Part shown: positions 18,857 through 47,487 of the stretch, piece after piece
Layout of the letters: each line of letters begins with the position of its first letter
Numbering within the stretch: the first letter of the stretch is position 1
Origin: Aminobacter niigataensis
GTDB taxonomy: Bacteria; Pseudomonadota; Alphaproteobacteria; Rhizobiales; Rhizobiaceae
DNA length: 64,000 nucleotides
Direction of reading: 5' to 3'
NCBI RefSeq assembly: GCF_014200015.1
Contig: NZ_JACHOT010000001.1
Span: 1,612,001 to 1,676,000 of the forward strand
Program-made: the position numbers and the translations under genes
The notes under the pieces: model-generated
Databases searched by the model: none
The model's input: only the letters and a program-made list of their open reading frames with translations
Told to the model about the DNA's origin: nothing

Positions 18857-19555
18857 TCAATCCTCCCCACCGCCAACGCCATATGAGATGACCGACAGGA
18901 AGCGGATGGGGAGTTTGATCAGTTCGTCTGGTCCGTGTGGCGCGTCGGCGTCGAAGAACAGGCTGTCGCCCGGCAGCAGCCGGTAGACTGATGTGCCATG
19001 GCGGTAGTTGACCTCGCCTTCGAGCAGGTAAAGCAATTCCATCCCGGAATGCTGAAACAACGGGAAGGTATCAGTGTCCTTGGTCAGCGTGATGAGATAG
19101 GGCTCGACGAAGATGCCACCCGTGTTGGAGCCGATGTAACCCAGAAGGTTGTATTGATGACCGGCCCGCGTGCCGCGCCGCCCGACCTCGACACCTGTTC
19201 CTGCCTTCACGAAGACGGCGGTGCGCTCCTGTTCGAAGCGCCTGAGCAAGGACGAGAGCGGCACGGCCAAAGCCTGGGCGAGCGCCTGCAACGTGGCCAG
19301 TGACGGCGAGATGTGCCCGTTTTCGATCTTGGACATCATGCCGAGCGACACGCTTGCGGCGTCGGCAAGCTCGGCGAGGGTCATGCCATGACGCTTTCGG
19401 CAGAAGCGTACTTCGCGCCCGATCGCGGTCTGCAGGCGGTTCTCGCCGCTGTCGCGCGTCGAATGCGGATTCTGGCAAAGGCTGGCGGGTTGCTCCACCA
19501 GATCGTTCTGCTGCTCGCGAGCGTCCGCCACGAGGGCGAAATGTGCTTCTTCCAC
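18857..19555 (-). CDS. XRE-family regulator with C-terminal cupin domain
   Basis: A 232-residue regulator with an N-terminal XRE helix-turn-helix (REVRFCRKRHGMTLAELADA ... GMMSKIENGHISPSLATL, ~45-97) and a C-terminal cupin sensor (~150-225: HSGMELLYLLEGEV ... LPGDSLFFDADAPH). I chose GTG 19555 over the farther upstream ATG 19627 because GGGAGG lies nine bases ahead of it and the longer start would overlap the preceding permease. It is the last gene of the reverse nucleoside-importer operon (68 bp after the permease). Proteins of this PuuR-like design usually repress catabolic operons and sense a small metabolite through the cupin. Confidence 0.9.
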   Translation of the reverse strand: MEEAHFALVADAREQQNDLVEQPASLCQNPHSTRDSGENRLQTAIGREVRFCRKRHGMTLAELADAASVSLGMMSKIENGHISPSLATLQALAQALAVPLSSLLRRFEQERTAVFVKAGTGVEVGRRGTRAGHQYNLLGYIGSNTGGIFVEPYLITLTKDTDTFPLFQHSGMELLYLLEGEVNYRHGTSVYRLLPGDSLFFDADAPHGPDELIKLPIRFLSVISYGVGGGED

Positions 19556-19623
19556 TGTCTTTGACCTCCCGCTCAGAGTTGCTGGAAAAGGCTTCGCTCG
19601 AACTACACCCGCTGTCGCCCGCG

Positions 19624-20556
19624 TCACTCGCGCGAATACGGGAAACCGAGCATTGCCGGCTGGCCGGTCCGGAAGCGAACCCCCATCAACAGGATGATCG
19701 AAGCGAGATAAGGCAGCGCGAGCAACAGCTGGCGCGGCACGCCGACGCCGACAACCTGGGCATGAGTGGCGATAGCTTCCAGCAAGGCAAAGGCCACCAC
19801 CGCCATCAGCACACCCTTGGGCTTCCAGTTTCCAGCGATGAGCGCGACAACCACGATCCAGCCGCGGCCGGCCGAGAAATCAGCGATGAAGCGATCAGAG
19901 AAAGCGAGCATCAGGAAACCACCGCCGAGCCCGGTCATGGCGCTGCCGAACATCACCGCGCCATATTGGCGGACAGGTACGCTCAGCCCCTTGACGTCGA
20001 GCGCCTTCGGATTCTCGCCAAGGCACCGCAGCTCCAGGCCATAACGCGTACGATAAAGCAGGAACCAGATCGCCGGAACGATGAAGAGCGCTGCGTAGGT
20101 CAACAGCCGCTGCGAGAACAGCACGGGGCCGATGAAGGGGATGTCCGACAGGAAGGGCAACGGCACGTCCTCGAAGCCGGCGAAGGAGGGTTGCGGGCCA
20201 CCGCGAACGTAGCTTTGAAACCAGTACAGTGTGATACCGCCGGCAAACAGGTTGAGGCCGAGGCCGGTGACGAAGTGGTCGACGCGCATCGTCGCCGTCA
20301 TGAAGGCGATGATCAGGCCCATGACGGCGCCAGCCAGGATCGCTGCGAGCACCGCCAGCCACAAGGAGCCGGTCGACGTCGCCACGAAATAGGCGATGAA
20401 CGAGCCCATCAGCATCGTGCCCTCGACACCCATGTTCCAGATCCCGGCGCGCTGGGTCACGAGTTCGCCCATGGCCGAAAACAGCAGCGGCGTCATCGTC
20501 CGCAAAGTCGCTGCGAAAATGCTGATGAGGATGGCTTCCTGAAACAATCCGCTCAT
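19624..20556 (-). CDS. Nucleoside-type ABC permease (second subunit, NupQ/BmpG-like), importer 1
   Basis: A 310-residue membrane protein of the BPD_transp_2 (LivH/RbsC) type, with about eight to ten hydrophobic helices. It carries the family stretch MGELVTQRAGIWNMGVEGTM near residues 28-47 and ends in PYSRE, exactly as its paralogue at 33122-34054 does. The ATG at 20556 overlaps the preceding permease stop (ATGA), which fixes the start. With the next gene upstream it forms the channel of a BMP-type purine-nucleoside importer. Confidence 0.93.
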   Translation of the reverse strand: MSGLFQEAILISIFAATLRTMTPLLFSAMGELVTQRAGIWNMGVEGTMLMGSFIAYFVATSTGSLWLAVLAAILAGAVMGLIIAFMTATMRVDHFVTGLGLNLFAGGITLYWFQSYVRGGPQPSFAGFEDVPLPFLSDIPFIGPVLFSQRLLTYAALFIVPAIWFLLYRTRYGLELRCLGENPKALDVKGLSVPVRQYGAVMFGSAMTGLGGGFLMLAFSDRFIADFSAGRGWIVVVALIAGNWKPKGVLMAVVAFALLEAIATHAQVVGVGVPRQLLLALPYLASIILLMGVRFRTGQPAMLGFPYSRE

Positions 20557-21617
20557 GACGCGGTACCCCTGACGATCTTGTAACGCGCCATCACGCTGGC
20601 ACAGAGGACGAAAAGCAGGATGATGCCTTGCATGGCTGGCACGAGAGACGCCGGGATGTCGCTGACCACCCGCATCGACACGGCACCACTTGCCAGCCCG
20701 CCAAACAGCAGTCCCGCAAGCACAGTGCCCAGCGGCCGCAAGCCGCCGATCATGCCGACGATGATACCGGCGTAGCCAAGTCCGACCAGGTTGTCGGCCT
20801 TCAGCCGGTGCCCGACGCCGTAGAGTTCGATGACCCCGGCAAGGGCTGCGAGTCCACCGCTGATGCACATCACCGCAATGATGGTCCTGGCGATATTGGT
20901 GCCCTTGTGGCCAAGCGCGACAGGATTGGTTCCCAGTGCCTTTATCTCGTAGCCGAGTGCGGTCCGGTCGAGCATGACGGCACAGCAAATCGCAGCGACG
21001 AAGGGCAACAGCACGCCGATATGGAGCTTGGTTCCAAACAGCAGCGGCAATTGCTCCGCGGCCGGAAGCGGCACCGACTGCTGATAAGAAGCGCCATCGC
21101 CGATTTCGGCCCAGGGTCCTCCCGCCAGAAGGTAAGACAACAGGTAGATTGCAAGGTAGTTGGTCATCACAGTCGAAACGATCTCGTTGACGCCAAAGCG
21201 TGTCTTGAGGATCGCGCAGGCTCCGCCCAGCAGCAGCCCGCCGGCGACGCCGAACAGGATCACCCCGGGAAAGAACAGCAGCGGCGGCAGGCCAGCCAGG
21301 ATCTGGCTGCCGAGATAGCCGGCCATCGCGCCGGCGAAGACCTGGCCTTCCTGGCCGATGCTCCATATCTGCGCGCGAAAGGCGATGACGGTTGCCAATC
21401 CCGTCAGGATCAGCGGCGTCGACTTGATGAGGGTGGTCATCACCGCTTTCTGCGAGCCAAAGGCACCGAAGAACAAAGTCCTGAACGCCTCGAAGGGATC
21501 AGCGCCGGCCGTCGCCACGATGAGTGCGGAGGCAAGCATGCCAGCGGCCAGTGCGGCCACCAGCGTGCCGGCTGTCCACCATGGATTGGCGTCGATGCGC
21601 CGTTCGATCCGGATCAT
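20553..21617 (-). CDS. Nucleoside-type ABC permease (first subunit, NupP/BmpF-like), importer 1
   Basis: A 354-residue BPD_transp_2 permease. It includes FRAQIWSIGQEGQVFAGAMA, the conserved stretch of the first permease of BMP importers. Its ATG overlaps the ATPase stop by four bases (21614-21617), and its own stop overlaps the next permease start, so ATPase and both permeases are translationally coupled. It is paralogous to 34047-35129. Confidence 0.93.
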   Translation of the reverse strand: MIRIERRIDANPWWTAGTLVAALAAGMLASALIVATAGADPFEAFRTLFFGAFGSQKAVMTTLIKSTPLILTGLATVIAFRAQIWSIGQEGQVFAGAMAGYLGSQILAGLPPLLFFPGVILFGVAGGLLLGGACAILKTRFGVNEIVSTVMTNYLAIYLLSYLLAGGPWAEIGDGASYQQSVPLPAAEQLPLLFGTKLHIGVLLPFVAAICCAVMLDRTALGYEIKALGTNPVALGHKGTNIARTIIAVMCISGGLAALAGVIELYGVGHRLKADNLVGLGYAGIIVGMIGGLRPLGTVLAGLLFGGLASGAVSMRVVSDIPASLVPAMQGIILLFVLCASVMARYKIVRGTAS

Positions 21618-23194
21618 CGTCCAGCCTCCATCCTGCGTCCGGCCATCAGCATGCCGACCTCTTCCACTGTCGCTGTCTTGGGATCTACGACACCGACGAT
21701 CTCGCCCTTGAACATCACCGCTATGCGGTCGGCGAGATTGAACAGGTCGCTGAGCTCTTCGGAGGCGAGCAGGATCGCGAAACCCTCTTCGCGCTTCTGG
21801 AGCAATTGGGCGTAGACATATTCGATGACGCCGATGTCGAGGCCGCGCGTCGGCTGGTTGGCGAGCAGCAGCCCCGACGAATGCAGGAACTCGCGCGCCA
21901 GGATGACCTTCTGGGCGTTGCCACCGGAGAGGTTTTCGACCGGCACCTCGTCGTCGCGCGCGGCGATCTGGTAGCGGGCCATCATCGTCTTCGACAGCGC
22001 TGCGATCTTGCCGCGGTCCAGAAACAGGCCGCTGCGATACTTGGCGTTGCGCTGCCAGCCGAGGATGAGGTTTTCGGCGATGCTGAACGGCCCGACCAGA
22101 CCCTCACGAAAACGGTCGTCGGGAATGTGTCCCACGCCCCTGTCCATCATCGCGCGCGGCGTGAGCCGGCTGACGTCCTCGCCGTTCAGCCTGATCGTGC
22201 CTTCGCGTGACCAGCGCACACCCGAAAGAACCTCGAAAAGCTCCTTCTGGCCATTGCCCGCGACACCGGCGATGCCGAGGATTTCGTGCCGCGCGATCGA
22301 CAGCGACACCTGGTTCAGCACCGCCTCGTTCCAGTAGCCCCTGGCGCCGAGGCCGCTGACCTCGAGCACCGTATCACCGGGCGCAACTGTCGACTTGTTG
22401 ACCGAAAACGACACCTCGCGGCCAACCATGAGCCGCGCCAGTTCCTCAGGCGAGGTGTCCTTGGTCTGAACGGTGGCGACTGCCTTGCCCTTGCGCAGAA
22501 CGGTGACGCGGTTCGACTGCATCACTTCGGCGACCTTGTGGGTGATCAGGATGATCGACATGCCGTTGGCGCACATCTTGCGCATGATGGCGAACAGGCG
22601 CGCGGACTCATCAGGTGTCAGCACCGCCGTCGGTTCGTCGAGAATGAGGATCTGGACGTCGAGGTAGAGCGCCTTGAGAATCTCGACCCATTGCTGGCGC
22701 CCGACCGCCAGTTCCCAGACATAGGCGTCGAGATCGATCTCGATGCCGTAGGCGTCGCACAGGCTCTTCAGCTTTTGCCTGGCTGCTCTGTCGTCCAGCC
22801 GCCACCCGGATTTCTGGGTTCCGACAATGATATTTTCCAGCACGGTAAATTCGGGCACCAGCACGAAATGCTGATGCACCATGCCGATGCCGAGCTTGAT
22901 CGCGTCCCTTGGCGAGTGCATCTCGACTGGTTGGCCGCGTACGACGATCTGCCCGGCGTCCGGCGTGCAGAAACCGAAGATGCAGGCCGACAAGGTCGAC
23001 TTGCCCGCGCCATTTTCACCGAACAGGCAGTGGATCTCGCCGACCTCCAGCTCGAAGTCGACGCCGTCATTGGCCGTCACGCCGGCGAAGCGCTTGGTCA
23101 GACCTTCAACGCGCAGAGCCAGAGGTGTTTCCTCAGTACCCGCCTTTCTGGCATTCGCCGGCGTCGGTTCTTTGATGCTCGGTAAGAGCGACAT
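21614..23194 (-). CDS. Nucleoside-type ABC ATPase with two nucleotide-binding domains (NupO/YufO-like), importer 1
   Basis: A tandem ATPase of about 526 residues, as in RbsA/YufO-type sugar and nucleoside importers. The N-terminal domain has Walker A FGENGAGKST (~57-66), a degenerate signature LAVGRQQWVEIL and ILILDEPTAVL. The C-terminal domain has a degenerate P-loop GVAGNGQKELFEVLSG and an intact signature LSGGNAQKVILAREF (~421). The frame is open from 23233, but ATG 23194 (MSLLPSIKEP) has AAGGAAC six bases upstream and is preferred. It energises the two downstream permeases. Confidence 0.93.
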   Translation of the reverse strand: MSLLPSIKEPTPANARKAGTEETPLALRVEGLTKRFAGVTANDGVDFELEVGEIHCLFGENGAGKSTLSACIFGFCTPDAGQIVVRGQPVEMHSPRDAIKLGIGMVHQHFVLVPEFTVLENIIVGTQKSGWRLDDRAARQKLKSLCDAYGIEIDLDAYVWELAVGRQQWVEILKALYLDVQILILDEPTAVLTPDESARLFAIMRKMCANGMSIILITHKVAEVMQSNRVTVLRKGKAVATVQTKDTSPEELARLMVGREVSFSVNKSTVAPGDTVLEVSGLGARGYWNEAVLNQVSLSIARHEILGIAGVAGNGQKELFEVLSGVRWSREGTIRLNGEDVSRLTPRAMMDRGVGHIPDDRFREGLVGPFSIAENLILGWQRNAKYRSGLFLDRGKIAALSKTMMARYQIAARDDEVPVENLSGGNAQKVILAREFLHSSGLLLANQPTRGLDIGVIEYVYAQLLQKREEGFAILLASEELSDLFNLADRIAVMFKGEIVGVVDPKTATVEEVGMLMAGRRMEAGR

Positions 23195-23257
23195 GGTGGT
23201 TCCTTGATCAAGTTCACTCAAAAAACTGCGCAAGCAGCAGTGGAGGTGGCGCAGCGG

Positions 23258-24289
23258 CTAATCTGACTTCGGTTCCGATAGGTCGACTGGAATTTCGAGT
23301 TCACCTGAGGCGATCTTTGCCTTTAGCGTCTCAACTTCCGTCCGCACGTCCACTGGCAGGCTCGCTTCCAGATCATGGTAGGGAGCAAACGCGGCTCCGC
23401 CATCCTTCATGCCGAACCAATGCTCCTTGAGGTTGCCGCCGTAAGGCTTGCCTTCTGCCTTGTGGCTCCACCAGTTTTCGATGATCCACATCAAATCAGG
23501 GTCCCACACGGCTACGGTGCTGCTGAGGATCGTGGCCGGCGAAAAGTTGCTTTCATCCTGGAAACTGCCGAAGCACAGGATTTTCGCGGCCTCGCACGGC
23601 TTGAAATTGCCGGACAGCTGGAAAATCACATCGGCTCCGGCCGCAATCTGAGCGCCGGCATATTCAGCCGCCTTGGCAGGGTCATACCAGGATCCGACAA
23701 ACGCTACTTTCCGGGCGATCGCCGGATTGACTGCCCGCGCACCGGCGAAAAATGCGTTGATCGAGTCATTGATGTCTTCGATGAAAAAGGGCGCGACTAC
23801 GCCAAGCACATCGGATTTGGTCATCCGTCCTGCCAAAACGCCAAGCAGATAGGCAGGTTCGTGGAGACGCTTATAGACCCAATACTGATTGTCACCGAGA
23901 CCTTCATTGCCGGCACCGACGACAACGAAGAGAATTTCCGGAAACTCGTCCTTCAGCTTCTTGACCTGGTCGGAATAGGTGCTATGGGCCCAGATGATGT
24001 CGTAGTCACCGCTTTCGGCGAACAGGCGCATCGCATCGCCGGCGTCGTCGCCCCAAAGCGGCTCGGTCGACTTCCACTCGATGTCGAGACCATGTGGCTT
24101 TGCTTGCTTGACGCGTTCGAGCGACTTGATCAGCGTTGCATCGAAGCCATGGTCCAGACCAGCCGACAAGATGACCGCGATGCGGAGCTTTTCGGGTGAG
24201 CCCGCGTACGTGCCGTTCGTGTGTCCGAAAACGACGAATAAAGTCAGCACCCAGATGGCTAGTAATCGTCTTGATAATTGACCTAACAT
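23258..24289 (-). CDS. BMP-family periplasmic nucleoside-binding protein 1
   Basis: A 343-residue protein with a signal peptide (hydrophobic core AIWVLTLFVVFG, cleavage near TYAGS) and a BMP (Med/PnrA) domain, the family that binds purine nucleosides for ABC uptake. No lipobox cysteine is present, so it should be soluble in the periplasm. The block STYSDQVKKLKDEFPE and the motif LRIAVILSAGLD are shared almost unchanged with the second BMP protein of this window. It lies between the deaminase and the importer ATPase and is clearly the binding protein of importer 1. Confidence 0.92.
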   Translation of the reverse strand: MLGQLSRRLLAIWVLTLFVVFGHTNGTYAGSPEKLRIAVILSAGLDHGFDATLIKSLERVKQAKPHGLDIEWKSTEPLWGDDAGDAMRLFAESGDYDIIWAHSTYSDQVKKLKDEFPEILFVVVGAGNEGLGDNQYWVYKRLHEPAYLLGVLAGRMTKSDVLGVVAPFFIEDINDSINAFFAGARAVNPAIARKVAFVGSWYDPAKAAEYAGAQIAAGADVIFQLSGNFKPCEAAKILCFGSFQDESNFSPATILSSTVAVWDPDLMWIIENWWSHKAEGKPYGGNLKEHWFGMKDGGAAFAPYHDLEASLPVDVRTEVETLKAKIASGELEIPVDLSEPKSD

Positions 24290-24348
24290 TCCATTGCTCC
24301 CATTCGTTTTCCGACGGCGCTTCTGTTTTTTATTGCGCCGTCGCTGCC

Positions 24349-25407
24349 TTATGCAGACGTGAGTGCATCACTGTTTTCCGCATCCAGAAGAGCAATCTGC
24401 TCATCGATTTCGCGTGACCATGATGCGCGCCAGTCCCGCTTGACGGACTCGTCGAGCCACGACGCCTCGAGGGAATTGAGCGCAAGCGTCTTCAATGCTG
24501 CGGCATCGAGATTCATATTCGTGGCAAGCATCTGATACTCGTTTGCCAGATCGGTCTCGAACATTGGCGGATCATCCGCTGCCACAACGATCGTCAGTCC
24601 GGCTTCGATCATTTGCCGAATAGGATGATCCTTCGCGGCAAGATCGCGCCAGATCGTCACCCCAACGGTTGAACTCGGGCAGATGGTGAAGACGGTCCGG
24701 TCAGCGCGACAGCGGGCGACCAGATCGAGATCCTCCATCACACGATAACCGTGGTCGATGCGCTCGACCTTCAGCAAATCCAGCGAGTCCCGCACGTTGG
24801 ACGCCGGGCCGCCCTCTCCGGCATGAGCAGTGCGATGAAGTCCCGCCTGGCGTGCCCGATCGAAAAGCGGCTTGAATTGTGCCGGCGGGAAAGGTGTTTC
24901 GTCAAAATCGAGACCGATGCCGATCACCTTGTCGGTTCGGTGGGCAAGCACCATGTCCAGAAACTCGAAACCCCGCTCGAGCCCAAGTTCGCGATTGTGC
25001 GCGGGTATCAGCCTCGAAATCAGCCCGAAGTCCGTCTCGATGTCATCCATCGCGCGGAACATGCCGGCAAGCATGGTCTGATAGGCCACGCCGCATTCCA
25101 GATGAACATGTGGACTGAAGAAGAACTCGACGTAACGGGCGCCGCTGTTGGCACAAGCTTGCAGCATCTCGTAGGTGATGAGATGGAAATCGTCGGCATC
25201 TATCACCGATCTGGATGCCATATTGTAAACCTTTAGGAAATCCAGAAGATTATCGTATTGATAAATTTCAGACACATTCTTATGATCTGGAACTTCTAGT
25301 TTATTTTTCCTAGATAATTTAAGAAATGTCTCTGGATTTATTGCGCCTTCCAAGTGAAGATGGATTTCTGTTTTCGGGATATTTCTTATGAACGCTTCCA
25401 GAGCCAC
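24349..25407 (-). CDS. Adenosine/adenine deaminase-family enzyme 1
   Basis: A 352-residue zinc hydrolase of the adenosine deaminase family (TIM barrel). Metal and catalytic motifs are TEIHLHLEGA (~13-22), TAHAGEGG, RIDHGYRV and ADDPPMFETDLANEY. It should hydrolytically deaminate a 6-aminopurine (adenosine, adenine or an N6-substituted form) to the 6-oxo product plus ammonia or amine. The start is GTG 25407 behind GGAGAAGATCG. It is the first gene of the operon that encodes importer 1 and lies divergently from an AraC regulator. Sequence alone does not separate adenosine from adenine or N6-alkyl substrates. Confidence 0.88.
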   Translation of the reverse strand: MALEAFIRNIPKTEIHLHLEGAINPETFLKLSRKNKLEVPDHKNVSEIYQYDNLLDFLKVYNMASRSVIDADDFHLITYEMLQACANSGARYVEFFFSPHVHLECGVAYQTMLAGMFRAMDDIETDFGLISRLIPAHNRELGLERGFEFLDMVLAHRTDKVIGIGLDFDETPFPPAQFKPLFDRARQAGLHRTAHAGEGGPASNVRDSLDLLKVERIDHGYRVMEDLDLVARCRADRTVFTICPSSTVGVTIWRDLAAKDHPIRQMIEAGLTIVVAADDPPMFETDLANEYQMLATNMNLDAAALKTLALNSLEASWLDESVKRDWRASWSREIDEQIALLDAENSDALTSA

Positions 25408-25595
25408 CGATCTTCTCCATCTTTATCGCCGCTCAAGACCCCTGTCGCGCGAACGTCGCACGAGCGAGTACCGACCCCGTGCGATAGTCATTTTTGCCGA
25501 CAATCACGGATGGATTTCCATCATCGATCAAGCCGAGCTGTCTATTCGCTGTGACCGGATTGTCGTGCATCGCGGCGCCAAGCGGAATATCGCCG

Positions 25596-25624
25596 CCGAT
25601 CCGAAGCATGTCTTGAATTAAGAT
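25596..25624. promoter_or_regulatory. Conserved motif, copy 1 (between deaminase 1 and AraC 1)
   Basis: The right half is GTCTT-GAATT-AAGAT (25610-25624), one change from a perfect ATCTT-N5-AAGAT inverted repeat. Similarity to copy 3 reaches about 40 bp further left (TGCATC, AATATCG, TCCGAAGCAT). It lies 46 bp before the AraC start and 189 bp from the divergent deaminase start. It is probably the binding site or core promoter shared by three paralogous regulator/target pairs. Confidence 0.6.
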
Positions 25625-25669
25625 TACGCCGAGCTAATGTTTGGAATGCCCGAAGGGTGGAGGGAGCCA

Positions 25670-26503
25670 GTGGACAGTGTTGTAGATCCCGAACACGGCT
25701 TCTCGTTTGGGGAAGCCGACTACTCAACCGGAGGGGTCTACGGACCACTGACCAGACGCTACGTTACGTTGCTGATGATGCACGAAGGCAGCGCAAAGGT
25801 GACATGCGATGGGGAAGTCACCATCGTCGAAAACGGGCAATGCGGCTTCATCCTGTGCGAAGGCGTTTCGCTGTTCGAATATGAGAAAGGCCAGCGCGAC
25901 AGGGTAAGCTGGTGTGAGGGATTTCCGGCCAGCCTGCCGGAGTCCGTTGTCTTGCGCCTGCGCGATGTGCCGTCTCAAATTCCCATTACCGACCGGCTGG
26001 CAACACTTGTGCGCCTGGGTCTGGAACTGGGCTCAGGGACCGGGGCCTACGTCAACATGCTCCGGAACAATTTGGGGCAGTCGCTGTTCACCGCCTATTT
26101 CCATGAAGCACAGGTCTCGGAGCTGGAGCGCCACATCCCCCGTTCGATTCATCAAGCCCGGCGCTATCTGGAGGACAATTTCGAAAAGGAGATGACTGTC
26201 GGCCATGTGGCGGATGTGGTGGCCGTCACGCCCCAACATCTGATCTCATCGTTCCGAAAACACATAGGAGTAACGCCTGTCCGCTATCTCTGGCAGATAC
26301 GGGCGAACCGTGGCAAGCAACGCCTCTTGCATACCGGTTTGACGATCTCAGAAATCGCGTATCAATGCGGCTACAAGAATCCCTTTCATTTCTCGCGGCA
26401 GATCAAGCTGCATTTCGGCATGTCGCCTACGGAACTGCGTGCCAATATGGATTACCGCAAACCAAGTCGTGTCGCCGAAAACGCAGTGAACATGGTCTTT
26501 TGA
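25670..26503 (+). CDS. AraC-family transcriptional regulator 1
   Basis: A 277-residue regulator with an N-terminal sensor domain (VDPEHGFSFGEADYSTGGVY onward) and a C-terminal AraC double helix-turn-helix (~170-265: VADVVAVTPQHLISSFRKHI ... CGYKNPFHFSRQIKLHFGMS). GTG 25670 is preferred to ATG 25637: it has GGAGG six bases upstream and gives MDSVVDPEHGF, matching MQTIVDPEHGF and MKIVVDQEDGF of its two paralogues in this window. It is transcribed away from deaminase 1 and importer 1 and probably controls them. Confidence 0.9.
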   Translation: MDSVVDPEHGFSFGEADYSTGGVYGPLTRRYVTLLMMHEGSAKVTCDGEVTIVENGQCGFILCEGVSLFEYEKGQRDRVSWCEGFPASLPESVVLRLRDVPSQIPITDRLATLVRLGLELGSGTGAYVNMLRNNLGQSLFTAYFHEAQVSELERHIPRSIHQARRYLEDNFEKEMTVGHVADVVAVTPQHLISSFRKHIGVTPVRYLWQIRANRGKQRLLHTGLTISEIAYQCGYKNPFHFSRQIKLHFGMSPTELRANMDYRKPSRVAENAVNMVF

Positions 26504-26524
26504 CTGACGACCGAGTCCCGCCTA

Positions 26525-26552: not shown

Positions 26553-26562
26553 GAGCGTTGTC

Positions 26563-39914: not shown

Positions 39915-39981
39915 TGTTCACGGACGCGAGCCAGAGCTCACCCCTGCCCTGATGTACTGTGCGCATGATCATCGGGGCATT

Positions 39982-40007
39982 GCTCCGCCGGCGCAAGCCG
40001 ACGGAGC
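39982..40007 (-). terminator. Stem-loop after the porin gene
   Basis: GCTCCG-C-CGGC-GCAA-GCCG-A-CGGAGC: ten paired positions with one mismatch and a GCAA-type loop, about 20 bp beyond the porin stop on the reverse strand. No long T-tract follows. Confidence 0.5.
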
Positions 40008-40028
40008 CGCGTCTACTCGCAAGACGCG

Positions 40029-41069
40029 CTAGAACGATGCCTCCATGCGCACGAAGCCGCCGATCATATCGGCGCCGTCGACGGCAAAATTGTCGTAGAA
40101 GCCGATCTCCGGCGTGACCATCAGATCCGGCACGACCTGATATGCGACATTGGCAACCGCGGCAAAGTTCTCGTCTTCGTCATAGGACAGCTGGAAGTTC
40201 ACCGAGGCTTTGTCGGAAGCCTTGATCGTGGCGCCGCCCCACACGGCCCACCGGCCGCCCCAGATACCGTAGAACTGGGAATAGGGTGCGCTGTCGTCGC
40301 TCTTGAGTCCTGCCATTGCGAATGCGGAAACTGTATCGCTGAAGGTGGCATCGAGGCGCAGCTTGCCTGACCACTCCTCCGAAACCGAGTCATAGGCAGC
40401 AACCAAGGCCACGGCACCCCAGGATTGCGCGTAGGACAGGCCTGCCACGACATGCGGCATGTAGCTGTCGACGACGAACGGGTCGTAGCCGGTTTCGAGC
40501 GAAACGGCCGCGGTGAAGCCGTTTTCGTTCTTGTAGGTGTAGGCGATCTGCGGCGTGGCGAATGGGCCGTAGCCGATCACGTCGTCCTTGGAGACATAAC
40601 CTGCATAGTTGACGAAGGTGATGAACAGCGAGTCGTTCACGCCGATGCGCAAGCCACCCAGCTCGATGATGGCACTCTCGATTTCCATCGCTTCGTGACC
40701 GCCGTCAGAGTCGATGTCATGCTGGAAGTTGATGTGCATGTAGCGGCGCAACGTGCCGAGTTCAGTCTCCGAGCGGGCATCGATCTTCAACGCCGCGCGG
40801 GCACGCTTGAAATAGGTGTCGCCCCGGCCGTCGTCGTCACGGTCCGCGCCAAAAAGGTCGCCCACACCGATCTCGTAGCGAATGTAGCCGCCGACGCGCA
40901 GGCAGGTTTCAGTCCCCGGCAGATAGTAGAAGCCGGCACCGTAGGTATCGCAGACGCGGACATAGCCGATCGGCTCCGGTTCGGCGACGACCACGGCATC
41001 AGCGGCCTGGGCGCCATAGGGCGCACCGATTGCCAGCGCGCAGCCAAGCGCAGTTTTCCTGTAATTCAT
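40029..41069 (-). CDS. Porin_2-family outer-membrane porin
   Basis: A 346-residue porin of the alphaproteobacterial Porin_2 (Omp2b/RopA) family. A signal peptide (ALGCALAIGAPYGAQA) is followed by the family hallmark VRVCDTYGAGFYYLPGTETC, with two cysteines, and LRVGGYIRYE. Alternating beta-strand pattern runs to a terminal aromatic residue (MEASF), the usual outer-membrane assembly signal. ATG 41069 has GGGAGGG upstream. It sits between the AraC 4 regulator and glyA and may serve as an entry pore for the island's substrate. Confidence 0.93.
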   Translation of the reverse strand: MNYRKTALGCALAIGAPYGAQAADAVVVAEPEPIGYVRVCDTYGAGFYYLPGTETCLRVGGYIRYEIGVGDLFGADRDDDGRGDTYFKRARAALKIDARSETELGTLRRYMHINFQHDIDSDGGHEAMEIESAIIELGGLRIGVNDSLFITFVNYAGYVSKDDVIGYGPFATPQIAYTYKNENGFTAAVSLETGYDPFVVDSYMPHVVAGLSYAQSWGAVALVAAYDSVSEEWSGKLRLDATFSDTVSAFAMAGLKSDDSAPYSQFYGIWGGRWAVWGGATIKASDKASVNFQLSYDEDENFAAVANVAYQVVPDLMVTPEIGFYDNFAVDGADMIGGFVRMEASF

Positions 41070-41400
41070 TGTCCCGGTTCCCTCCCGATTTGTAGCTGTT
41101 CTGGTTTTCATGCCGGGGTGGACATCCCGCATGCAGGCGGCAATCGTCGCGATCCAGGCGTTCCTCCCCGTCAGCGTCAGGCAGCATGCGTCGCCCCCCA
41201 TCGCGTGACGGAGGTGCATGCTGCCTGCCGATCAACGACCGGCCTGGATGTTGGTGTGTGCGGCGATTGCGTTGCGACGTTAGGACAGGCGTGGCACCGT
41301 CCGAATGGCCGAGATACGCAAAACCATATCTGCAGGTAATGCGAAAAAGAGCCAATGCAGCAGCGGCCAAGCTGCTGCATTGGCGGTCAGCCGCCCAAGG
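41070..41400. other. 331-bp intergenic stretch between porin and glyA
   Basis: It contains the glyA terminator (41351-41384) at its right end and, by position, the porin promoter and leader. I see no gene in it; the short frames on both strands have no recognisable domain. Confidence 0.5.
41351..41384 (-). terminator. Intrinsic terminator of the glyA transcript
   Basis: GCCAATGCAGCAGC and GCTGCTGCATTGGC form a perfect 14-base-pair stem with a six-base loop (GGCCAA). On the reverse strand it is followed by TCTTTTTC. It lies 17 bp after the glyA stop and is the clearest Rho-independent terminator in the window, marking the end of the one-carbon module. Confidence 0.88.
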
Positions 41401-42675
41401 TCAGATTGAACGGCCTTCGTAGATCGGGAATGCTGCGCACAGCCACTCCACCGTCGAATGAACTGCACGTTCCTGCTCAGTGGCACGATCGGTGCCGACG
41501 GCGTCGAGCACGTCGGCGATCAGCGTGCCGACCTGGGCGAACTCCGCCTCGCGAAAGCCACGCGTGGTGGCAGCCGGCGTGCCCAGCCGAATCCCTGAGG
41601 TAACCGCGGGTGGCGCTGGATCGAACGGGATGCCGTTCTTGTTGCAGGTCAGCCCGGCCCGGCCGAGTGCCTCTTCGGCGTCCTTGCCGGAGATACCCTT
41701 GCTGCGCAGGTCGACCAGCATCAGATGCGTGTCGGTGCCACCTGAAACGATATCGAAACCGCGCGCCGAAAGTGTCGTGGCAAGCGTGCGCGCATTGGCC
41801 ACCATCTGCCTGGCATATTCCTTGAAGCCATCCTCAAGCGCCTCACCCAAGGCAACCGCCTTGGCGGCGATGACATGCATCAGCGGACCGCCTTGCAGGC
41901 CAGGAAAGACCGCCGAGTTCAGCTTCTTGGCGATGTCGGCATTGTTGGTGAGGATCATGCCGCCGCGCGGACCACGCAGCGTCTTGTGCGTGGTCGTAGT
42001 CACGATGTCGGCGACTTCCAGTGGGTTGGGATGCACGCCGCCGGCAACCAGTCCGGCGAAATGCGCCATGTCGACCATCATCAGCGCGCCGACGCTGTCG
42101 GCGATCGCCCGGATGCGCTTGAAATCGATGATGCGCGGATAGGCCGAGCCCCCGGCGATGATCAGCTTCGGCCGCGTTTCGAGCGCCTTGGCCTCCAGTT
42201 CGTCGTAGTCGATCAGGCTGTCACTCTGGCGCACACCATACTGCACCGCGTTGAACCACTTGCCCGACAGCGTCGGCCTAGCACCATGAGTCAGGTGCCC
42301 ACCGGCGGCAAGCGACAAGCCCATGAAGGTGTCGCCGGGCTTCAGCATGGCAAGCATGACCGCGCCATTGGCTTGGGCGCCCGAGTGCGGCTGCACGTTG
42401 ACATGGGCCGCGCCGAACAGCCGGCTCGCCCGCTCGATTGCTGCGGCTTCTGCCAGATCGACATACTGACAGCCACCATAATAGCGGTGGCCGGGGTAGC
42501 CCTCGGCATATTTGTTGGTCAGCACCGAGCCTTGCGCTTCAAGCACGGCGGGCGAGACGATGTTCTCGGAGGCGATCAGTTCGATCTCCGACCGCTGGCG
42601 GGCGGTTTCACGTGCGATCGCATCCGCGATCACCGGATCCTGGCGCTTCAAGTCGCGTTGAAAAAAGCCGGACAT
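41401..42675 (-). CDS. glyA: Serine hydroxymethyltransferase
   Basis: A 424-residue SHMT that interconverts glycine plus 5,10-methylene-THF with serine, using PLP. The PLP lysine is in [15 protein letters not shown], and other marks are [14 protein letters not shown] and [14 protein letters not shown]. Length is normal. It is the last gene of the reverse one-carbon operon (81 bp after hydroxypyruvate reductase). In this context it would probably run in the serine-forming direction to take up C1 units. A housekeeping glyA may exist elsewhere in the genome; that is not visible here. Confidence 0.97.
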
Positions 42676-42756
42676 GCTTTGTTGTCTCCTGGCGGCAAGG
42701 GGCAGACGCCGTTTGGCGCCCGCCCTTGGCTTGGTGTTGGAAAATTGAAACGGGGA

Positions 42757-43716
42757 CTAGCTGACGGCGTCGGGCGGTGATCGGCCTTCGAAAAAGGCGG
42801 TGAGGTTGTCGATCACCCGCATGCCCATGGCGATACGCGTCTCGTTGGTGGCGCTGCCGAGATGCGGCAACAGCACGACATCGTCGCGCTCCGTCAGCGA
42901 GCGCGGCACCACCGGCTCGGTTTCGAACACGTCGAGCCCGGCACCGGCAATGCGCCCTTCGTCGAGTGCATTGACCAGGGCGCGTTCGTCGACGACATCG
43001 CCACGCGCCGTGTTGATCAGGAAGGCAGATTTTTTCATGTTGCCGAGACGACGGCTGTTGATCAGATAGTGGTTCTCGCCACCGCCTGGACAATGCAGCG
43101 ACACGAAATCGGCCACCGCCAGCACGTCGTCGACGGTCGTCAGCTGGCGCGCCGGCATGCCGGGGTCGGCAACCGGCTGGCTGTCGTAGAAGACGACGTC
43201 CATGCCGAAACCGTAATGGCAGCGCCGTGCCATGGCCTGGCCGATGCGACCCATGCCGACGATGCCGATGGTCTTGCCGGTGACGTGGGTGCCGCAGAGA
43301 TGGGTCGGCCGCCAGCCGGTCCATTTTCCGGAGCGCAGTTCACGCTCGCCTTCCCGGGCGCGGCGGGCGCACATCAACAGCAGCGTCATGGCAAGATCGG
43401 CGGTAGCGTCGGTAAGCACCGCAGGCGTATTGGTGACCACGACGCCAGCTGTCTTCGCCGCCGCAACATCGATGTGGTTGTAGCCGACGCCAAAATTGCC
43501 GAGGATTTTTGCCTGGACACCATCCGTAAACAGCTCGGCGCCAAGCCTGTCCGACACAGTGGGCAGCACCGCATCGGCTTCCCGCAGCGCCAGGCGCAAT
43601 TCACTTCGATTGTACGGGCGGTCGGTTTCGTTGAGCCTGACGTCGAACTGGCTGGCCAGCCGCTCCTCGACTTCGAGCGGCCAGCGACGGGTGACGATTA
43701 CCTTCGGTCTGGTCAT
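42757..43716 (-). CDS. D-2-hydroxyacid dehydrogenase, probable hydroxypyruvate/glyoxylate reductase
   Basis: A 319-residue NAD(P)H-dependent dehydrogenase. The Rossmann motif is GIVGMGRIGQAMAR, and the catalytic set includes Arg in INTARGDVVDE, a Glu in LDVFETEP and His in LLPHLGSAT. It should reduce hydroxypyruvate to D-glycerate (and glyoxylate to glycolate). It begins 9 bp after serine-glyoxylate aminotransferase, which makes hydroxypyruvate, so the pathway assignment is strong. Confidence 0.9.
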   Translation of the reverse strand: MTRPKVIVTRRWPLEVEERLASQFDVRLNETDRPYNRSELRLALREADAVLPTVSDRLGAELFTDGVQAKILGNFGVGYNHIDVAAAKTAGVVVTNTPAVLTDATADLAMTLLLMCARRAREGERELRSGKWTGWRPTHLCGTHVTGKTIGIVGMGRIGQAMARRCHYGFGMDVVFYDSQPVADPGMPARQLTTVDDVLAVADFVSLHCPGGGENHYLINSRRLGNMKKSAFLINTARGDVVDERALVNALDEGRIAGAGLDVFETEPVVPRSLTERDDVVLLPHLGSATNETRIAMGMRVIDNLTAFFEGRSPPDAVS

Positions 43717-43725
43717 CCCATCCCC

Positions 43726-44931
43726 TCAAGCTGCGCGGTCTTGCTGCGGCTGCAGATTGCCGGTGACCTCGGCGCGGTACCATTCCTGGGCCGCGGCGAC
43801 GCCGGAACCGGCTTCAACCTTGGCGCCGGCATCGCGCAACGACATTTCCGCCGAGGCCAAAGCGGCAAGGCACATCACCTCGTTGAGATCGCCGAGGTGG
43901 CCGATGCGGAAGACACGGCCCGCGACCCTGCTCAGCCCGGCGCCGAACGAGGTGCGATATCTCGAATAGCCGTTGGCGATGACATGCCGGGCATCGATGT
44001 CGTCAGGCACGACGATCGCCGAAACGGTGTTTGACCACCACTTCTCTTCCTTGGCGCAGAGCCTGAGACCCCAGGCATGCACGCCGCGGCGCACGCCCTC
44101 GGCGAGGCGATGGTGCCGCGCGATGATGTTGTCGAGCCCCTCGGCGAAGATCAGGTCGAGAGATGCACGCAGCCCATGCAGCAACTGGGTCGGCGGCGTG
44201 TAGGGGAAGAAGCCGGTCGACGATGACGCCTTCATGTCTTCGAAGCTGAAATAGCAGCGTTCCATGCGGGACTGCTTGTGCGCTTCGAGCGCCTTCTCGC
44301 TGACGGCAAGGATGCCGAGGCCGGCAGGCAGCATCAGCCCTTTCTGCGAGCCGGTGACGGCGAGGTCGACGCCCCATTCGTCCATGCGAAAATCGATCGA
44401 GCCGATCGAGCTGACGCCGTCGACGAACAGCAGCGCGCCATGGCCGGCTGCGTCGAGGGCCGTGCGTACACCGGCGACATCTGACGTGACGCCCGTGGCC
44501 GTTTCATTATGCGTGGCAAACACCGCCTTGATACGGCCGTGCTTGTCATCGCTCAGCCGCCGCTGGTATTCCTCGACCGGAATCCCCTCGCCCCACTCGA
44601 CGTCGATGCAGTCAACCTTGAGGCCCAGCCTCTGGGCCATGTCGACCCACAGATGCGAGAACTGACCGAAGCGCGACATCAGCACGCGGTCGCCGCGGTT
44701 CAGCGTATTGGAGATGGCCGCTTCCCAGGCACCCGTGCCTGAGCCGGGATAGATGAAAACGGTACCCGCCTCGGTCTTGAACACCTTCTTGAGATCGGCA
44801 AACAGCGGCAGCGTCAATTCCGGATAGTCCGGTGCGCGCATGTCCTGCATCGAGACATTCATCGCCCGCCGAACGGCATCGGGGATGTTCGTCGGTCCAG
44901 GCACGAAAAGATGCGTGGTTCCATTCTTCAT
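43726..44931 (-). CDS. sgaA: Serine-glyoxylate aminotransferase
   Basis: A 401-residue class V PLP aminotransferase that converts serine and glyoxylate to hydroxypyruvate and glycine, a key step of the serine cycle. The PLP lysine is in VTGSQKGLMLPAG, and the N-terminus HLFVPGPTNIPDAVRRAM is typical. ATG 44931 is preferred because GGAGGAAC lies seven bases upstream; the longer open frame upstream lacks family similarity. Gap to metF is 285 bp, in which I see nothing. It feeds the hydroxypyruvate reductase directly downstream. Confidence 0.93.
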   Translation of the reverse strand: MKNGTTHLFVPGPTNIPDAVRRAMNVSMQDMRAPDYPELTLPLFADLKKVFKTEAGTVFIYPGSGTGAWEAAISNTLNRGDRVLMSRFGQFSHLWVDMAQRLGLKVDCIDVEWGEGIPVEEYQRRLSDDKHGRIKAVFATHNETATGVTSDVAGVRTALDAAGHGALLFVDGVSSIGSIDFRMDEWGVDLAVTGSQKGLMLPAGLGILAVSEKALEAHKQSRMERCYFSFEDMKASSSTGFFPYTPPTQLLHGLRASLDLIFAEGLDNIIARHHRLAEGVRRGVHAWGLRLCAKEEKWWSNTVSAIVVPDDIDARHVIANGYSRYRTSFGAGLSRVAGRVFRIGHLGDLNEVMCLAALASAEMSLRDAGAKVEAGSGVAAAQEWYRAEVTGNLQPQQDRAA

Positions 44932-45216
44932 CGGATGTTCCTCCTGTTTGATGTCGGCGCGCGACGACCTGCGATCATCCCTCGCATCGGCGCCCGATTG
45001 GCGGGCTTGCCTGCACTGGTTCTGGTGGCTCCTCGCGCATAGGCGAACACGACCATCTGGCGTCCGTTCAACATGGCGAGGCACGCGCAAGCATGCGGCT
45101 TTGCTGTCGCGGCCAGAGGCCGCGAAGTCCTGCACGCTCATCACATGCGTCACACGCTCGGTTTCCTGTTCGATGGCCGGGTCAGGTGACATGGCGGGCC
45201 GTTACGGCCCGGCTCA

Positions 45217-46101
45217 TCAGTCGCCGGGGCGCAGCCGACGGGCTCCCCGATGTTCGCTGTACCAGGCCAGCGTCTTTTCCCAGCCGCCGAAGGGGAAGAA
45301 GTGCAAATGCAGCGGTCCCACCGGTTGCGGATAGCTCGTTGACATTGCTTCAATCACATCGGCCGGATTGCGGTCGGCAATGACGTTGAACAGCCCGCTC
45401 GCCGAACGCTTCAGCGCCGCGATCGAAGGCCCTACCCCGCACATCATGGCGAACTTGACCAACTTGGCCAGGCTGGTCACGCCCGCAAGCCCGACATGCA
45501 CGGGAAGTCCTGGATACTGTTCGTGCAAGCCTCGCGCCCAGGCACCCATGGCAGCACCGTCGAAAGCGAATTGCGAGACGACCCTGGCATCGATGGAGCG
45601 GTCATCGCAGATCTCGAGCTTGCGCCGAAGCGCGTCGGCAAGATCGGCATCGCCAATGTTCGGATGTCCCTCGGGGTAGCCCGCGACAAAGGCCGTACGA
45701 ATGGTCGAGTCGCGAAGCACGGGATGTGCCAGCAGTTGCGCAGATTCACTCATCGGCCCCGGAAAAAGTGCCGGATTGCCGCCCAGAAACAGCGCTTCAG
45801 TAATGCCGTTGCGGCTGTGCGCAGCGACGAGATCGACAAAGTCCTTCTCGGTCTTGAAGTTGCGCGCGCCGAGATGCGGCACGGCGATGTAGCCCTTTTC
45901 CCTGATACGCAGAGCCGCTTCAACCTGCATCGCCTCGGGCTTGCCGGTGAGATGGGTCAGGAACACGCGCGAACCCAGCGGGAAGTGCGAGACCTCGGGC
46001 GCAAAGCTGCGCGCCTGCTCCGGCGCGAGCTCGATCGACATGGCAGGCCCGACAGCACGGGCAGATGGCCTATCGGCAACGGCTTCACTTGTTTCGGTCA
46101 T
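45217..46101 (-). CDS. Methylenetetrahydrofolate reductase-family protein (MetF-like)
   Basis: A 294-residue protein of the MTHFR family (FAD-dependent TIM barrel that interconverts 5-methyl-THF and 5,10-methylene-THF). Family landmarks are PHLGARNFKT, LFLGGNPALFPGPM and AGYPEGHPNI. ATG 46101 (MTETSEAVADRP) is preferred to the longer frame. Beside a GcvT-like THF methyltransferase and glyA it would most simply oxidise methyl-THF to methylene-THF, as in methylotrophs that use THF-dependent demethylases. It is a short, diverged MetF, so the reaction is inferred from family and context. Confidence 0.85.
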   Translation of the reverse strand: MTETSEAVADRPSARAVGPAMSIELAPEQARSFAPEVSHFPLGSRVFLTHLTGKPEAMQVEAALRIREKGYIAVPHLGARNFKTEKDFVDLVAAHSRNGITEALFLGGNPALFPGPMSESAQLLAHPVLRDSTIRTAFVAGYPEGHPNIGDADLADALRRKLEICDDRSIDARVVSQFAFDGAAMGAWARGLHEQYPGLPVHVGLAGVTSLAKLVKFAMMCGVGPSIAALKRSASGLFNVIADRNPADVIEAMSTSYPQPVGPLHLHFFPFGGWEKTLAWYSEHRGARRLRPGD

Positions 46102-46174
46102 GTCTGCCCTTGGTCGATTGCGACCAGCCTGCGGCGTTCGCCGCCATGGCTGGCGCCGCCGATTGTCCAGGGTT

Positions 46175-46198
46175 GCCGGGCGGAACATGCCGCCCGGC
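46175..46198. other. Stem-loop between the GcvT-like and MetF-like genes
   Basis: GCCGGGCGG and CCGCCCGGC form a perfect nine-base-pair stem around AACATG. It lies in the 129-bp gap inside the one-carbon operon. It could attenuate transcription or stabilise the upstream message. There is no T-tract, so it is not a strong terminator. Confidence 0.45.
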
Positions 46199-46230
46199 GG
46201 TTCTTCGGGGAGGATGCGACGCTTGCTGCG

Positions 46231-47487
46231 TCAGCCTTTGGCGCGCTTGAGCGACAGGAACGGCAGCTCGATGACGCGCGCATTGACGTCGATCGTCTCG
46301 CCGTCCTTGTTCCAGCGCAGTGTCAGCTGCGAGCCAATTTCGGCTGCCTTGCCGCGCAGATGACCGAAGCCGATCATCTTGCCGATCGACGGTGCCCAGG
46401 CGACGCTCGAGGCATGCCCCACTTCAGCCCCGTCATGGAAGGCCGGCACCGGGTACCAGCGCACGCGCCGGAGATTGCCCGGCGTGCCGCCGTCGAGGCC
46501 CTTGCCGCCGGCAGCCTGCGACCAGTCGATGTCGAGTCCGACGAGTTGGCGGTGGTCGCCCGCTTCCGACATGCGCTGCAGCGCGGCCTTGCCGACGAAG
46601 TCGCTCTTGCGCAGGTCGATCAGCCGGCCAAGACCCAGATCGTAAGGCGAAGCCCGGAACTTGCCGGCTGCCTGGATACCGGCGCCACCGTGATCGGGGC
46701 CGGCGCTGGTGTAGTCGTAACCGACGATCAGCAGGCCGGCTTCGAGCCGGGCCAAATCGAGCGCCCAGGCACCCGCGGGCAGGATGCCGAAAGGCTGGCC
46801 CGCTTCCTGTACCGCATCCCAGACGGCTGCGCCGTCGGCGGCCCTGACCCAGAGCTCATAACCATGCTCGCCGGTGAAGCCCTGGCGCAATATCTCGACC
46901 TGCCGGCCGGCGATGGTGACGAAACCTAGCCGCGAAAACGGCAGTTCATCGAAGGCATTGCCGGTCACAGCGCGTAGCACTTCCCGTGAGCGCGGCCCCT
47001 GCAGGGTGAGGATGCCATAGTCATCGGTGATGTCGGTCACCACGACGTCGAGGCCCTCGGCATGGCTCTTCCACCAGGTGAAGCCGGGATCGGCCGAGAC
47101 ACGAAAGGTGGTTTCGTCCATGCGGAAGACGAGGCCGTCGCCGACGACGTGGCCGTTCTCGTCACACCATGGCGCATAATATATCTGGCCGACCTTCAGC
47201 TTGGTAATGTCGCGCGGGATCAGGCTGTCCATCAGCCTTTCCGCATCAGGCCCAGTGATGACGTATTTCGACAGCGGCGACATGTCGCCCATGGCGACCC
47301 GATTGCGGATCGCAGCCAGTTCCTCGACCATGTCGGAATAGGCGTCGACGACCATGTTCCTGTCCCAGCGCATCCACAAGGCGTTCTGGTTCAGCGGCGC
47401 CGTACGCTCGACGAACGGTGTGCCGCGGAATGCAACCCGGGCATCGGCCGCGGCGCTCAGGCCGGTGATGAATTTGACGTCGTCCAT
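46231..47487 (-). CDS. GcvT-family THF-dependent methyltransferase (aminomethyltransferase/demethylase type)
   Basis: A 418-residue GcvT-like protein. It has the THF-binding fold with AMGDMSPLSKYVITGPDAER, TLQGPRSREVL and the GFTGEHGYELWV motif, then a C-terminal barrel with DFVGKAALQR. Family members move a methyl or methylene group from a substrate to THF: the glycine cleavage T-protein, DmdA, and syringate/vanillate O-demethylases. No GcvH or GcvP is near, so this is more likely a stand-alone demethylase than glycine cleavage. It is first in the C1 operon, with GGAGG just ahead of ATG 47487. Confidence 0.88.
   Translation of the reverse strand: MDDVKFITGLSAAADARVAFRGTPFVERTAPLNQNALWMRWDRNMVVDAYSDMVEELAAIRNRVAMGDMSPLSKYVITGPDAERLMDSLIPRDITKLKVGQIYYAPWCDENGHVVGDGLVFRMDETTFRVSADPGFTWWKSHAEGLDVVVTDITDDYGILTLQGPRSREVLRAVTGNAFDELPFSRLGFVTIAGRQVEILRQGFTGEHGYELWVRAADGAAVWDAVQEAGQPFGILPAGAWALDLARLEAGLLIVGYDYTSAGPDHGGAGIQAAGKFRASPYDLGLGRLIDLRKSDFVGKAALQRMSEAGDHRQLVGLDIDWSQAAGGKGLDGGTPGNLRRVRWYPVPAFHDGAEVGHASSVAWAPSIGKMIGFGHLRGKAAEIGSQLTLRWNKDGETIDVNARVIELPFLSLKRAKG

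Follow-up and report, generated by a model that had tools for sequence, protein, structure and literature searches.

We analysed a 64,000-nucleotide stretch of the genome of the soil bacterium Aminobacter niigataensis (contig NZ_JACHOT010000001.1, positions 1,612,001 to 1,676,000 of the forward strand), hereafter the window. Positions 18857–47487 carry an island of genes for importers, oxygenases, deaminases and one-carbon (C1) metabolism, which divides into two modules that can be separated and that lie side by side in this genome. Module 1 (18857–33105) comprises a BMP-type importer, two deaminases of the adenosine deaminase (ADA) family, the Rieske oxygenase RO1 with its reductase, and AraC genes; module 2 (33122–47487) comprises a related importer, the oxygenase RO2, an AraC gene, a porin and C1 genes encoding serine hydroxymethyltransferase (SHMT), an aminotransferase, and MetF-like and GcvT-like proteins. 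We give an even chance to the proposal that the two modules cooperate in the catabolism of a purine base carrying an N-methyl group, the likeliest being a methylated 6-aminopurine.

On this proposal, the related importers would bring the methylated base into the cell. RO2 would take an N-methyl group off the ring and release formaldehyde, its electrons being supplied by an NdmD-like reductase and an NdmE-like glutathione S-transferase (GST) that are encoded outside the window, and ADA1 and ADA2 would convert the 6-aminopurine to a 6-oxopurine by deamination. RO1 and its reductase, Red, would either hydroxylate the ring, as HpxD does, or remove another methyl group. The XdhB and ureidoglycolate lyase of the genome would carry the ring to glyoxylate, by putative intermediate steps. 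The methyl carbon would pass onto tetrahydrofolate (THF) via the GcvT-like and MetF-like proteins and join glycine by SHMT to give serine, which would go on to glycerate through the aminotransferase and a hydroxypyruvate reductase-like enzyme; the remaining formaldehyde would be oxidised by FrmA and FrmB of the remote cassette. An N-methylated, purine-like substrate with C1 salvage had been suggested by an earlier reading of the DNA alone (the sequence-only reading), and this suggestion gains support from the NdmC-type anatomy of RO2, from the NdmD-like, NdmE-like and formaldehyde-oxidation neighbours, and from BMP genes flanking the caffeine cluster of Paraburkholderia caffeinilytica.

Two modules with paralogous importers

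Open reading frames (ORFs) of at least 150 residues were listed, and domains in the island proteins were assigned using hmmscan against Pfam and, for ten proteins, NCBIfam. The analyses identified two BMP-type importers (each with one ABC protein and a pair of permeases), three binding proteins of the BMP type, two deaminases matching PF00962, a Rieske oxygenase together with its FAD/NAD/Fer2 reductase of 337 residues, a VanA_C oxygenase lacking a Rieske domain, a porin and four AraC genes (three by Pfam and AraC2 by its 65% identity to AraC1). On the C1 side there are genes for SHMT, a 2-hydroxyacid dehydrogenase, a class-V aminotransferase, and GcvT-like and MetF-like proteins. The gene set claimed by the sequence-only reading is thus present, with no unrelated gene seen in between among ORFs of this length, and there is a fifth regulator that it had not listed, an HTH–cupin protein at the edge of module 1 (18857–19627, minus strand; HTH_3 and Cupin_2). 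The island is flanked by a solute-binding protein and a permease at one end and by an Mrp-type antiporter at the opposite end.

The same reading took these genes as a single island, and here it has to be corrected. In Aminobacter anthyllidis, module 1 is kept from the HTH–cupin regulator (93% identical) to AraC3, at 88–98% identity, and no module 2 gene occurs in the 6.8 kb beyond it. Module 2, from the GcvT-like gene to permease 2b, lies at 91–99% identity on a different contig from module 1 (670,596 versus 999,464 bases). We therefore conclude that there are two modules rather than one indivisible unit; in the window the gap between AraC3 and permease 2b is 16 bases. A comparison of flank proteins at the insertion site in five relatives gave, in A. 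anthyllidis, only a 39% match for one flank and no match for the other.

The importer genes all lie on the minus strand. Module 1 contains permeases 1b (19624–20556) and 1a (20553–21617), both PF02653; double ATPase 1 (21614–23233), with two PF00005 stretches; and BMP binding proteins BMP1 (23258–24289) and BMP2 (26563–27594), both PF02608 and 66% identical to each other. The best PDB match of BMP2 is 6pi5, an atrazine periplasmic binding protein (4.5e-33). Module 2 contains permeases 2b (33122–34054) and 2a (34047–35129), again PF02653; double ATPase 2 (35126–36685), also with two PF00005 stretches; and BMP3 (36682–37701; PF02608). Between modules the ATPases are 59% identical, the permeases 51 and 63%, and BMP3 51–52% to BMP1 and BMP2; the best matches at the six other BMP loci of the genome are 24–34% identical to the module importers. 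Given this close paralogy, the two modules probably handle related ligands, despite being separable.

Each of the five VanA_C matches in the genome (E up to 0.001) has a BMP gene no more than 3 kb away, while the 10-kb surroundings of BMP genes make up 3.0% of the genome. We also note another BMP importer beside a Rieske oxygenase on contig C5 (locus L041, 8618–15800), and an XdhB-like molybdenum hydroxylase at C5:331316.

The oxygenases and a remote NdmCDE-type cassette

RO2 (37943–38821, minus strand) matches only VanA_C in Pfam. It has no Rieske CxH..CxxH motif, but keeps the iron motif DMGHFPFVH and the sequence QDKPILENQ, and by its predicted anatomy it is an NdmC-like, Rieske-less non-heme iron oxygenase; it is 47% identical to the NdmC-position protein of P. 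caffeinilytica. We aligned RO2 with 24 sequences of at least 250 matched residues from 16 chosen loci. The Rieske motif is absent in 23 of the 25 and the iron motif D..H....H is kept in all; the two sequences with an intact Rieske motif (L066 and L069) are both gammaproteobacterial. RO2-type genes occurred in all nine genomes searched, which had been chosen for holding RO1. Nine reductase frames were read near RO2 homologues: eight carry an N-terminal Rieske motif, CLHRG..C.YH (open frames of 574–661 residues), and the ninth, in L053, is an RO1-type reductase without it.

The A. niigataensis genome itself encodes such partners. On another contig (C2), the gene order FrmB–AdhC–GST–NdmD-like–RO2–RO2 adjoins a BMP importer, with the same arrangement in A. 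anthyllidis, and the NdmD-like reductase has Rieske, NAD and Fer2 domains by Pfam, so that both an NdmD-type reductase with an extra Rieske domain and an NdmE-like GST are present. At locus L054 the reductase is followed by GST, AdhC (592 bits, cut-off 543.95), Gfa and FrmB. On the symbiotic plasmid pSymA of Sinorhizobium meliloti 2011 (L131, 12157–31563) module 2 occurs gene for gene (GcvT 78%, SHMT 85%, RO2 77% and BMP3 75% identical), followed by RO2–RO2–NdmD-like–GST–AdhC; the ndmD- and ndmE-like genes that are missing beside RO2 in the window thus stand next to module 2 there. The porin of module 2 had no match in this pSymA orthologue. The available part of PMC4408171 describes NdmC without a Rieske domain, NdmD with an extra one, a GST-like NdmE and flanking frmA and frmB, and reports ndmCDE homologues of unknown function, mostly in Sinorhizobium and Mesorhizobium. 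RO2 and the cassette fit this description, and this part of the system therefore belongs to the known NdmCDE kind.

On plasmid p1 of P. caffeinilytica CF1 (174,591 bases) the order is BMP binding protein, 2-oxoglutarate oxygenase, nucleobase symporter, two Rieske oxygenases, NdmC-, NdmD- and NdmE-like proteins, FrmA, FrmB and a BMP-type importer. A review, as far as available, places the caffeine genes of this species on a 174-kb plasmid (PMC10380055); in the available parts of that review and of PMC8055839, ABC-family transporters commonly surround ndm genes, with BMP not named. The NdmC/D/E/Frm anatomy and the BMP importer genes at this cluster would also suit a methylxanthine pathway (for caffeine, theobromine or 7-methylxanthine) like that of Pseudomonas putida CBB5. 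We consider this quite unlikely: xanthine needs no 6-deaminase, yet two ADA genes are present, and RO1 is only 28–30% identical to the P. caffeinilytica Rieske pair and falls outside their clade.

Three plasmid observations also concern RO2-type genes. A Rhizobium leguminosarum plasmid (L133, 11336–19520) has a split version with a separate Rieske protein, RO2, GST, an amidohydrolase and a BMP importer; a Komagataeibacter plasmid from a kombucha tea culture (L134, 6923–13474) has two RO2-like/Rieske/GST sets plus NdmA/B-like oxygenases; and 127 of the 234 plasmid records matched by an RO2-type search are from Rhizobium.

RO1 (28770–29825, minus strand; start codon chosen in the analysis) has Rieske and VanA_C domains and both expected motifs, CPHRG..CPMH for the Rieske centre and DVAHFPWVH for the mononuclear iron. 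The adjacent Red (27679–28692, minus strand) is an NAD/Fer2 reductase without a Rieske domain. The best PDB sequence matches of RO1 are NdmA (2.1e-36), NdmB and SxtT; in the plasmid collection, two unnamed oxygenases rank first (42%), ahead of annotated HpxD proteins (38–40%). A quick tree (55 rows, short search, no bootstrap, midpoint-rooted) contained the pair of Rieske oxygenases from P. caffeinilytica, which count as NdmA/B solely by their position, and not the PDB NdmA/B. It places RO1 on one side with HpxD (SH-aLRT 88) and the pair on the other, RO1 forming a separate branch outside the eight-row HpxD clade, which includes two records that bear the name HpxD, along with three sequences taken from two hpxO clusters. 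We therefore rejected a plain NdmA/NdmB assignment. As RO1 is nearer to HpxD than to this pair, it may oxidise the ring instead of demethylating it, although on sequence grounds either activity could apply. The claim of N-demethylase activity is thus weakened for RO1; the NdmC-like RO2, with its electron partners outside the window, is a putative N-demethylase. Structure models were of moderate confidence (mean pLDDT 76.4 for RO2 and 73.0 for RO1, whose other four models scored 45–61), and Foldseek ranked GxtA/SxtT first and NdmA/B lower for both, which does not settle the substrate.

The RO1–Red pairing matches HpxDE in its Pfam domains, the same pair occurring in Pantoea, and hpxDE act in hypoxanthine and xanthine oxidation according to the available part of PMC7373994. 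RO1 relatives in Acinetobacter (L137) and P. putida KF715 adjoin hpxO and BMP genes; in the former, RO1-like oxygenases share a locus with hpxO, allantoicase, ureidoglycolate lyase and the genes of a BMP importer. No hpxO or allantoin gene was found beside RO1 among the island genes scanned with Pfam. The HpxD side of the tree and the Acinetobacter locus are what would be expected if the genes served plain, unmethylated purine catabolism, in which BMP proteins would import adenine or adenosine, ADA would yield hypoxanthine, RO1–Red would act as an HpxDE-type hydroxylase towards xanthine and urate, and module 2 would be unrelated. This is unlikely in our view, since the genome already has an XdhB over cut-off, RO1 recurs with a Rieske-less RO2, an NdmD-type Rieske protein and GST in 11 of 23 loci, and the importers of modules 1 and 2 are closely paralogous.

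Deaminases, C1 genes and regulation

ADA1 (24349–25407) and ADA2 (30983–32017), both on the minus strand and 54% identical, score over the cut-offs of PF00962 and TIGR01430 (299 and 292 bits; cut-off 216.55 for TIGR01430). The zinc and catalytic motifs are kept, their roles being those we take to hold in mouse ADA. In five relatives at 64–66% identity to ADA1 the motifs HAGE, DHG and DDP are kept; HLHLEG becomes HLHLAG in four of them and is HLHLEG in the fifth, L055. The best PDB matches of ADA1, 3rys and 3ou8, are listed as adenosine deaminases, but we take them to be adenine deaminases, which makes a free base no less likely than a nucleoside as the substrate. The statement of the sequence-only reading that BMP proteins bind purine nucleosides is qualified to this extent. 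Besides ADA1 and ADA2 the genome has a single further PF00962 gene, on contig C3, 12 kb from a BMP gene; contig C10 carries XdhB (1372 bits, over cut-off) and ureidoglycolate lyase.

Deaminases of N6-methyladenine are known, and some ADA-family enzymes deaminate N6-substituted adenines. With this activity and with rhizobia among the hosts, the substrate could be a cytokinin or another N6-alkyladenine from which ADA would remove the N6 side chain as an amine. The glutathione-dependent formaldehyde genes in the remote cassette, like the set of THF genes, indicate a methyl group, however, and RO1 also occurs in Roseovarius, a Porticoccaceae assembly and other gammaproteobacteria, so that we regard such a substrate as very unlikely.

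The remaining genes of module 2 also lie on the minus strand. SHMT (41401–42675; PF00464) is over its NCBIfam cut-off (NF000586, 629 bits versus 335). The 2-hydroxyacid dehydrogenase (42757–43716; PF02826), which resembles glyoxylate/hydroxypyruvate reductase, is under that of NF009714 (305 versus 455). The class-V aminotransferase (43726–44931) matches the serine–glyoxylate aminotransferase 6pk1 (8.2e-132) and falls short of the model for BhcA, aspartate–glyoxylate aminotransferase (NF045640, 599 versus 650). The MetF-like protein (45217–46101) has no Pfam match and does not reach the cut-off of the MetF family model fadh2 (24.1 versus 293.7 bits); a profile built from five relatives matches 5,10-methylenetetrahydrofolate reductase, PDB 7xg9, at 3.1e-52. 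We rejected the MetF-like gene as a marker of the system because the family is common, with matches in 91 of 397 genomes of the order. The GcvT-like protein (46231–47487) is a THF-binding protein over the PF01571 cut-off and under those for glycine-cleavage GcvT (NF001567, 182 versus 300; TIGR00528, 120 versus 235.85); its nearest PDB entry is the trimethylamine N-oxide (TMAO) demethylase 9q5a (4.9e-46). As the genome has 21 GCV_T matches in all, this gene alone is not telling. Judging from the known pathway, the GcvT-like protein, the aminotransferase, SHMT and the 2-hydroxyacid dehydrogenase would form a set taking THF-bound C1 units and glyoxylate to glycerate. The available part of PMC8235418 reports serine-cycle genes in Aminobacter, its main text not mentioning caffeine, purine or Rieske. 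In the available part of PMC3272708, the S. meliloti "dehydrogenase" SMa2137 is gap-filled as 4-phosphoerythronate dehydrogenase; judging by its number it may be the hydroxypyruvate reductase-like gene of module 2. The porin (40029–41219; PF02530) lies beyond SHMT.

The TMAO demethylase resemblance leads to a further alternative, an N-methylated non-purine substrate such as a pyrimidine, a pterin-like ring or a betaine. Its probability is also quite low. GlxA-type regulators (DJ-1/PfpI plus AraC) are typical of betaine catabolism, and GcvT loci L051 and L053 carry them; the RO1 relatives in Cupriavidus and Leisingera noted below, one with a formaldehyde dehydrogenase, also fit. The ADA family members, the AtzT-like BMP2 and the kinship of RO1 to HpxD and NdmA point instead to purines.

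AraC1 (25637–26503; HTH_18), AraC2 (30043–30867) and AraC3 (32290–33105; HTH_18), all on the plus strand, are 61–67% identical to one another, and AraC4 (39108–39914, minus strand; HTH_AraC) is 41–43% identical to them. In module 1 a 29-base block is common to the three intergenic regions from which AraC genes diverge, with no mismatches by construction as the pattern was derived there; none was found in 100 shuffles. A 19-base operator-like form, ATCTTnATTCAnGATATSC, lies on the minus strand between ADA1 and AraC1 (25606–25624), RO1 and AraC2 (29947–29965), and ADA2 and AraC3 (32204–32222), with an extra copy, one mismatch away, inside the Red gene at 28386. It is fully matched between AraC and RO1 in L068, where RO1 is 70% identical. 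A degenerate form is visible by eye in Mesorhizobium and Aminobacter promoters, and L121 has one seven-mismatch match far outside genes. A search for shared 9-mers in nine intergenic stretches gave only short words upstream of RO2 and the porin, and no convincing element.

Distribution and relation to known systems

A search with RO1 against genome contigs found 23 loci in other genomes, with flanks of up to 10 kb (several contigs being shorter). A permease pair occurs near RO1 in 18 of these, BMP and AraC genes in 17 each, a Rieske-less RO2, an NdmD-type Rieske protein and GST in 11 each, and Frm genes in five; this association exceeds chance. The hosts include rhizobia, Roseovarius, a Porticoccaceae assembly and other gammaproteobacteria. 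Roseovarius loci have RO1, importer, RO2, NdmD-like protein and GST, with no ADA or GcvT in the stretch covered. Within the order, an RO1-like match at 1e-30 occurs in 18 of 397 genomes, A. niigataensis included, and exceeds 50% identity in only one other; the system is thus patchy. The gammaproteobacterial loci L066 and L069 have three to four oxygenases, ADA, GcvT, and MFS-like and TonB-like proteins by translation, with no BMP importer match; these appear to be the same enzymes with another uptake system. Assembly titles suggest a sponge or marine origin for L065, L070, L071 and others. Methylated purines are known from sponges.

Several of our observations weigh against cooperation of the two modules on a methylated purine. 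The modules are apart in A. anthyllidis, and the genes expected around RO1 recur only in part: ADA is near it in 12 of the 23 loci and GcvT-like genes in six, and nine (L058–L061, L063–L065, and the short L067 and L072) have neither. No match to GST, AdhC, Gfa or FrmB was obtained in the window, and RO1 is its only Rieske gene, so that RO2 must be served in trans. The RO1 tree placement given above belongs here too, as do the 42% relatives of RO1 in Cupriavidus and Leisingera, which sit in sets that we read as Rut-like and hence for pyrimidines. The 24.8-kb caffeine cluster of P. caffeinilytica has no ADA, GcvT or MetF match. A search for the operator-like element at module 2 gave no copy in the window, L120 or L131. 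Within three mismatches it occurs in three of 12 relatives scanned (L050, L055 with three mismatches, and L068) and is missing from nine; as the DNA of L050, the A. anthyllidis locus, is nearly identical to the window, L068 alone gives clean support from outside.

Both plants and the turnover of RNA and DNA yield methylated purines that have to be recycled, and the bacterial pathways described for them, in the available parts of the literature surveyed, concern methylxanthines only. It is possible, though doubtful, that the modules belong to a route, widespread and so far undescribed, that lets rhizobia, roseobacters and some gammaproteobacteria use N-methylated nucleobases as growth substrates supplying carbon, nitrogen and C1 units. 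Ring glyoxylate and the methyl carbon would pass through glycine and serine to glycerate in a small serine pathway, the GcvT-like protein capturing methyl or formaldehyde on THF; the Rieske-less demethylases would have spread as spare catalytic subunits, with one distant NdmD/NdmE-like pair passing electrons to them in trans. If so, this would define a route that could be tested in a model organism, S. meliloti, give a role to the rhizobial ndmCDE homologues, and show a Rieske oxygenase system split into orphan catalytic subunits that depend on remote partners.

The sequence-only reading knew of no described system of this kind. This has to be narrowed, as ndmCDE homologues and ABC transporters near ndm genes are in print in the available parts of PMC4408171, PMC10380055 and PMC8055839; the full combination was not found among the descriptions surveyed, as far as these were available. 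The system is novel as a combination of known parts. With the methylxanthine N7-demethylase NdmCDE and frmA/frmB of P. putida CBB5 and P. caffeinilytica CF1 it shares a Rieske-less oxygenase, a Rieske-bearing reductase, a GST and glutathione-dependent formaldehyde genes, and in P. caffeinilytica also the flanking BMP importer genes; it differs in that the reductase and GST are remote, in the added deaminases, GcvT-like, MetF-like and serine-pathway genes, and in its AraC regulators. RO1 shares its Rieske and VanA_C domains, and its top PDB sequence match, with the N1- and N3-demethylases NdmA and NdmB, but lies outside the clade of the P. caffeinilytica pair and beside a Rieske-free reductase. 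With the molybdenum-independent xanthine hydroxylase HpxDE, RO1 shares 38–40% identity to annotated HpxD, pairing with its own ferredoxin-type reductase, and the BMP and purine genes beside some of its relatives; it differs in its separate clade, in having no adjoining hpxO or allantoin gene, and in a genome that has XdhB. Finally, serine-pathway C1 assimilation and THF-linked demethylation (LigM/DesA, DmdA and Tdm) likewise use GcvT-family and MetF-like proteins, SHMT, a serine–glyoxylate-type aminotransferase and a hydroxypyruvate reductase-like enzyme, but here these are grouped in a single run that also includes a BMP-type importer and an NdmC-like oxygenase.

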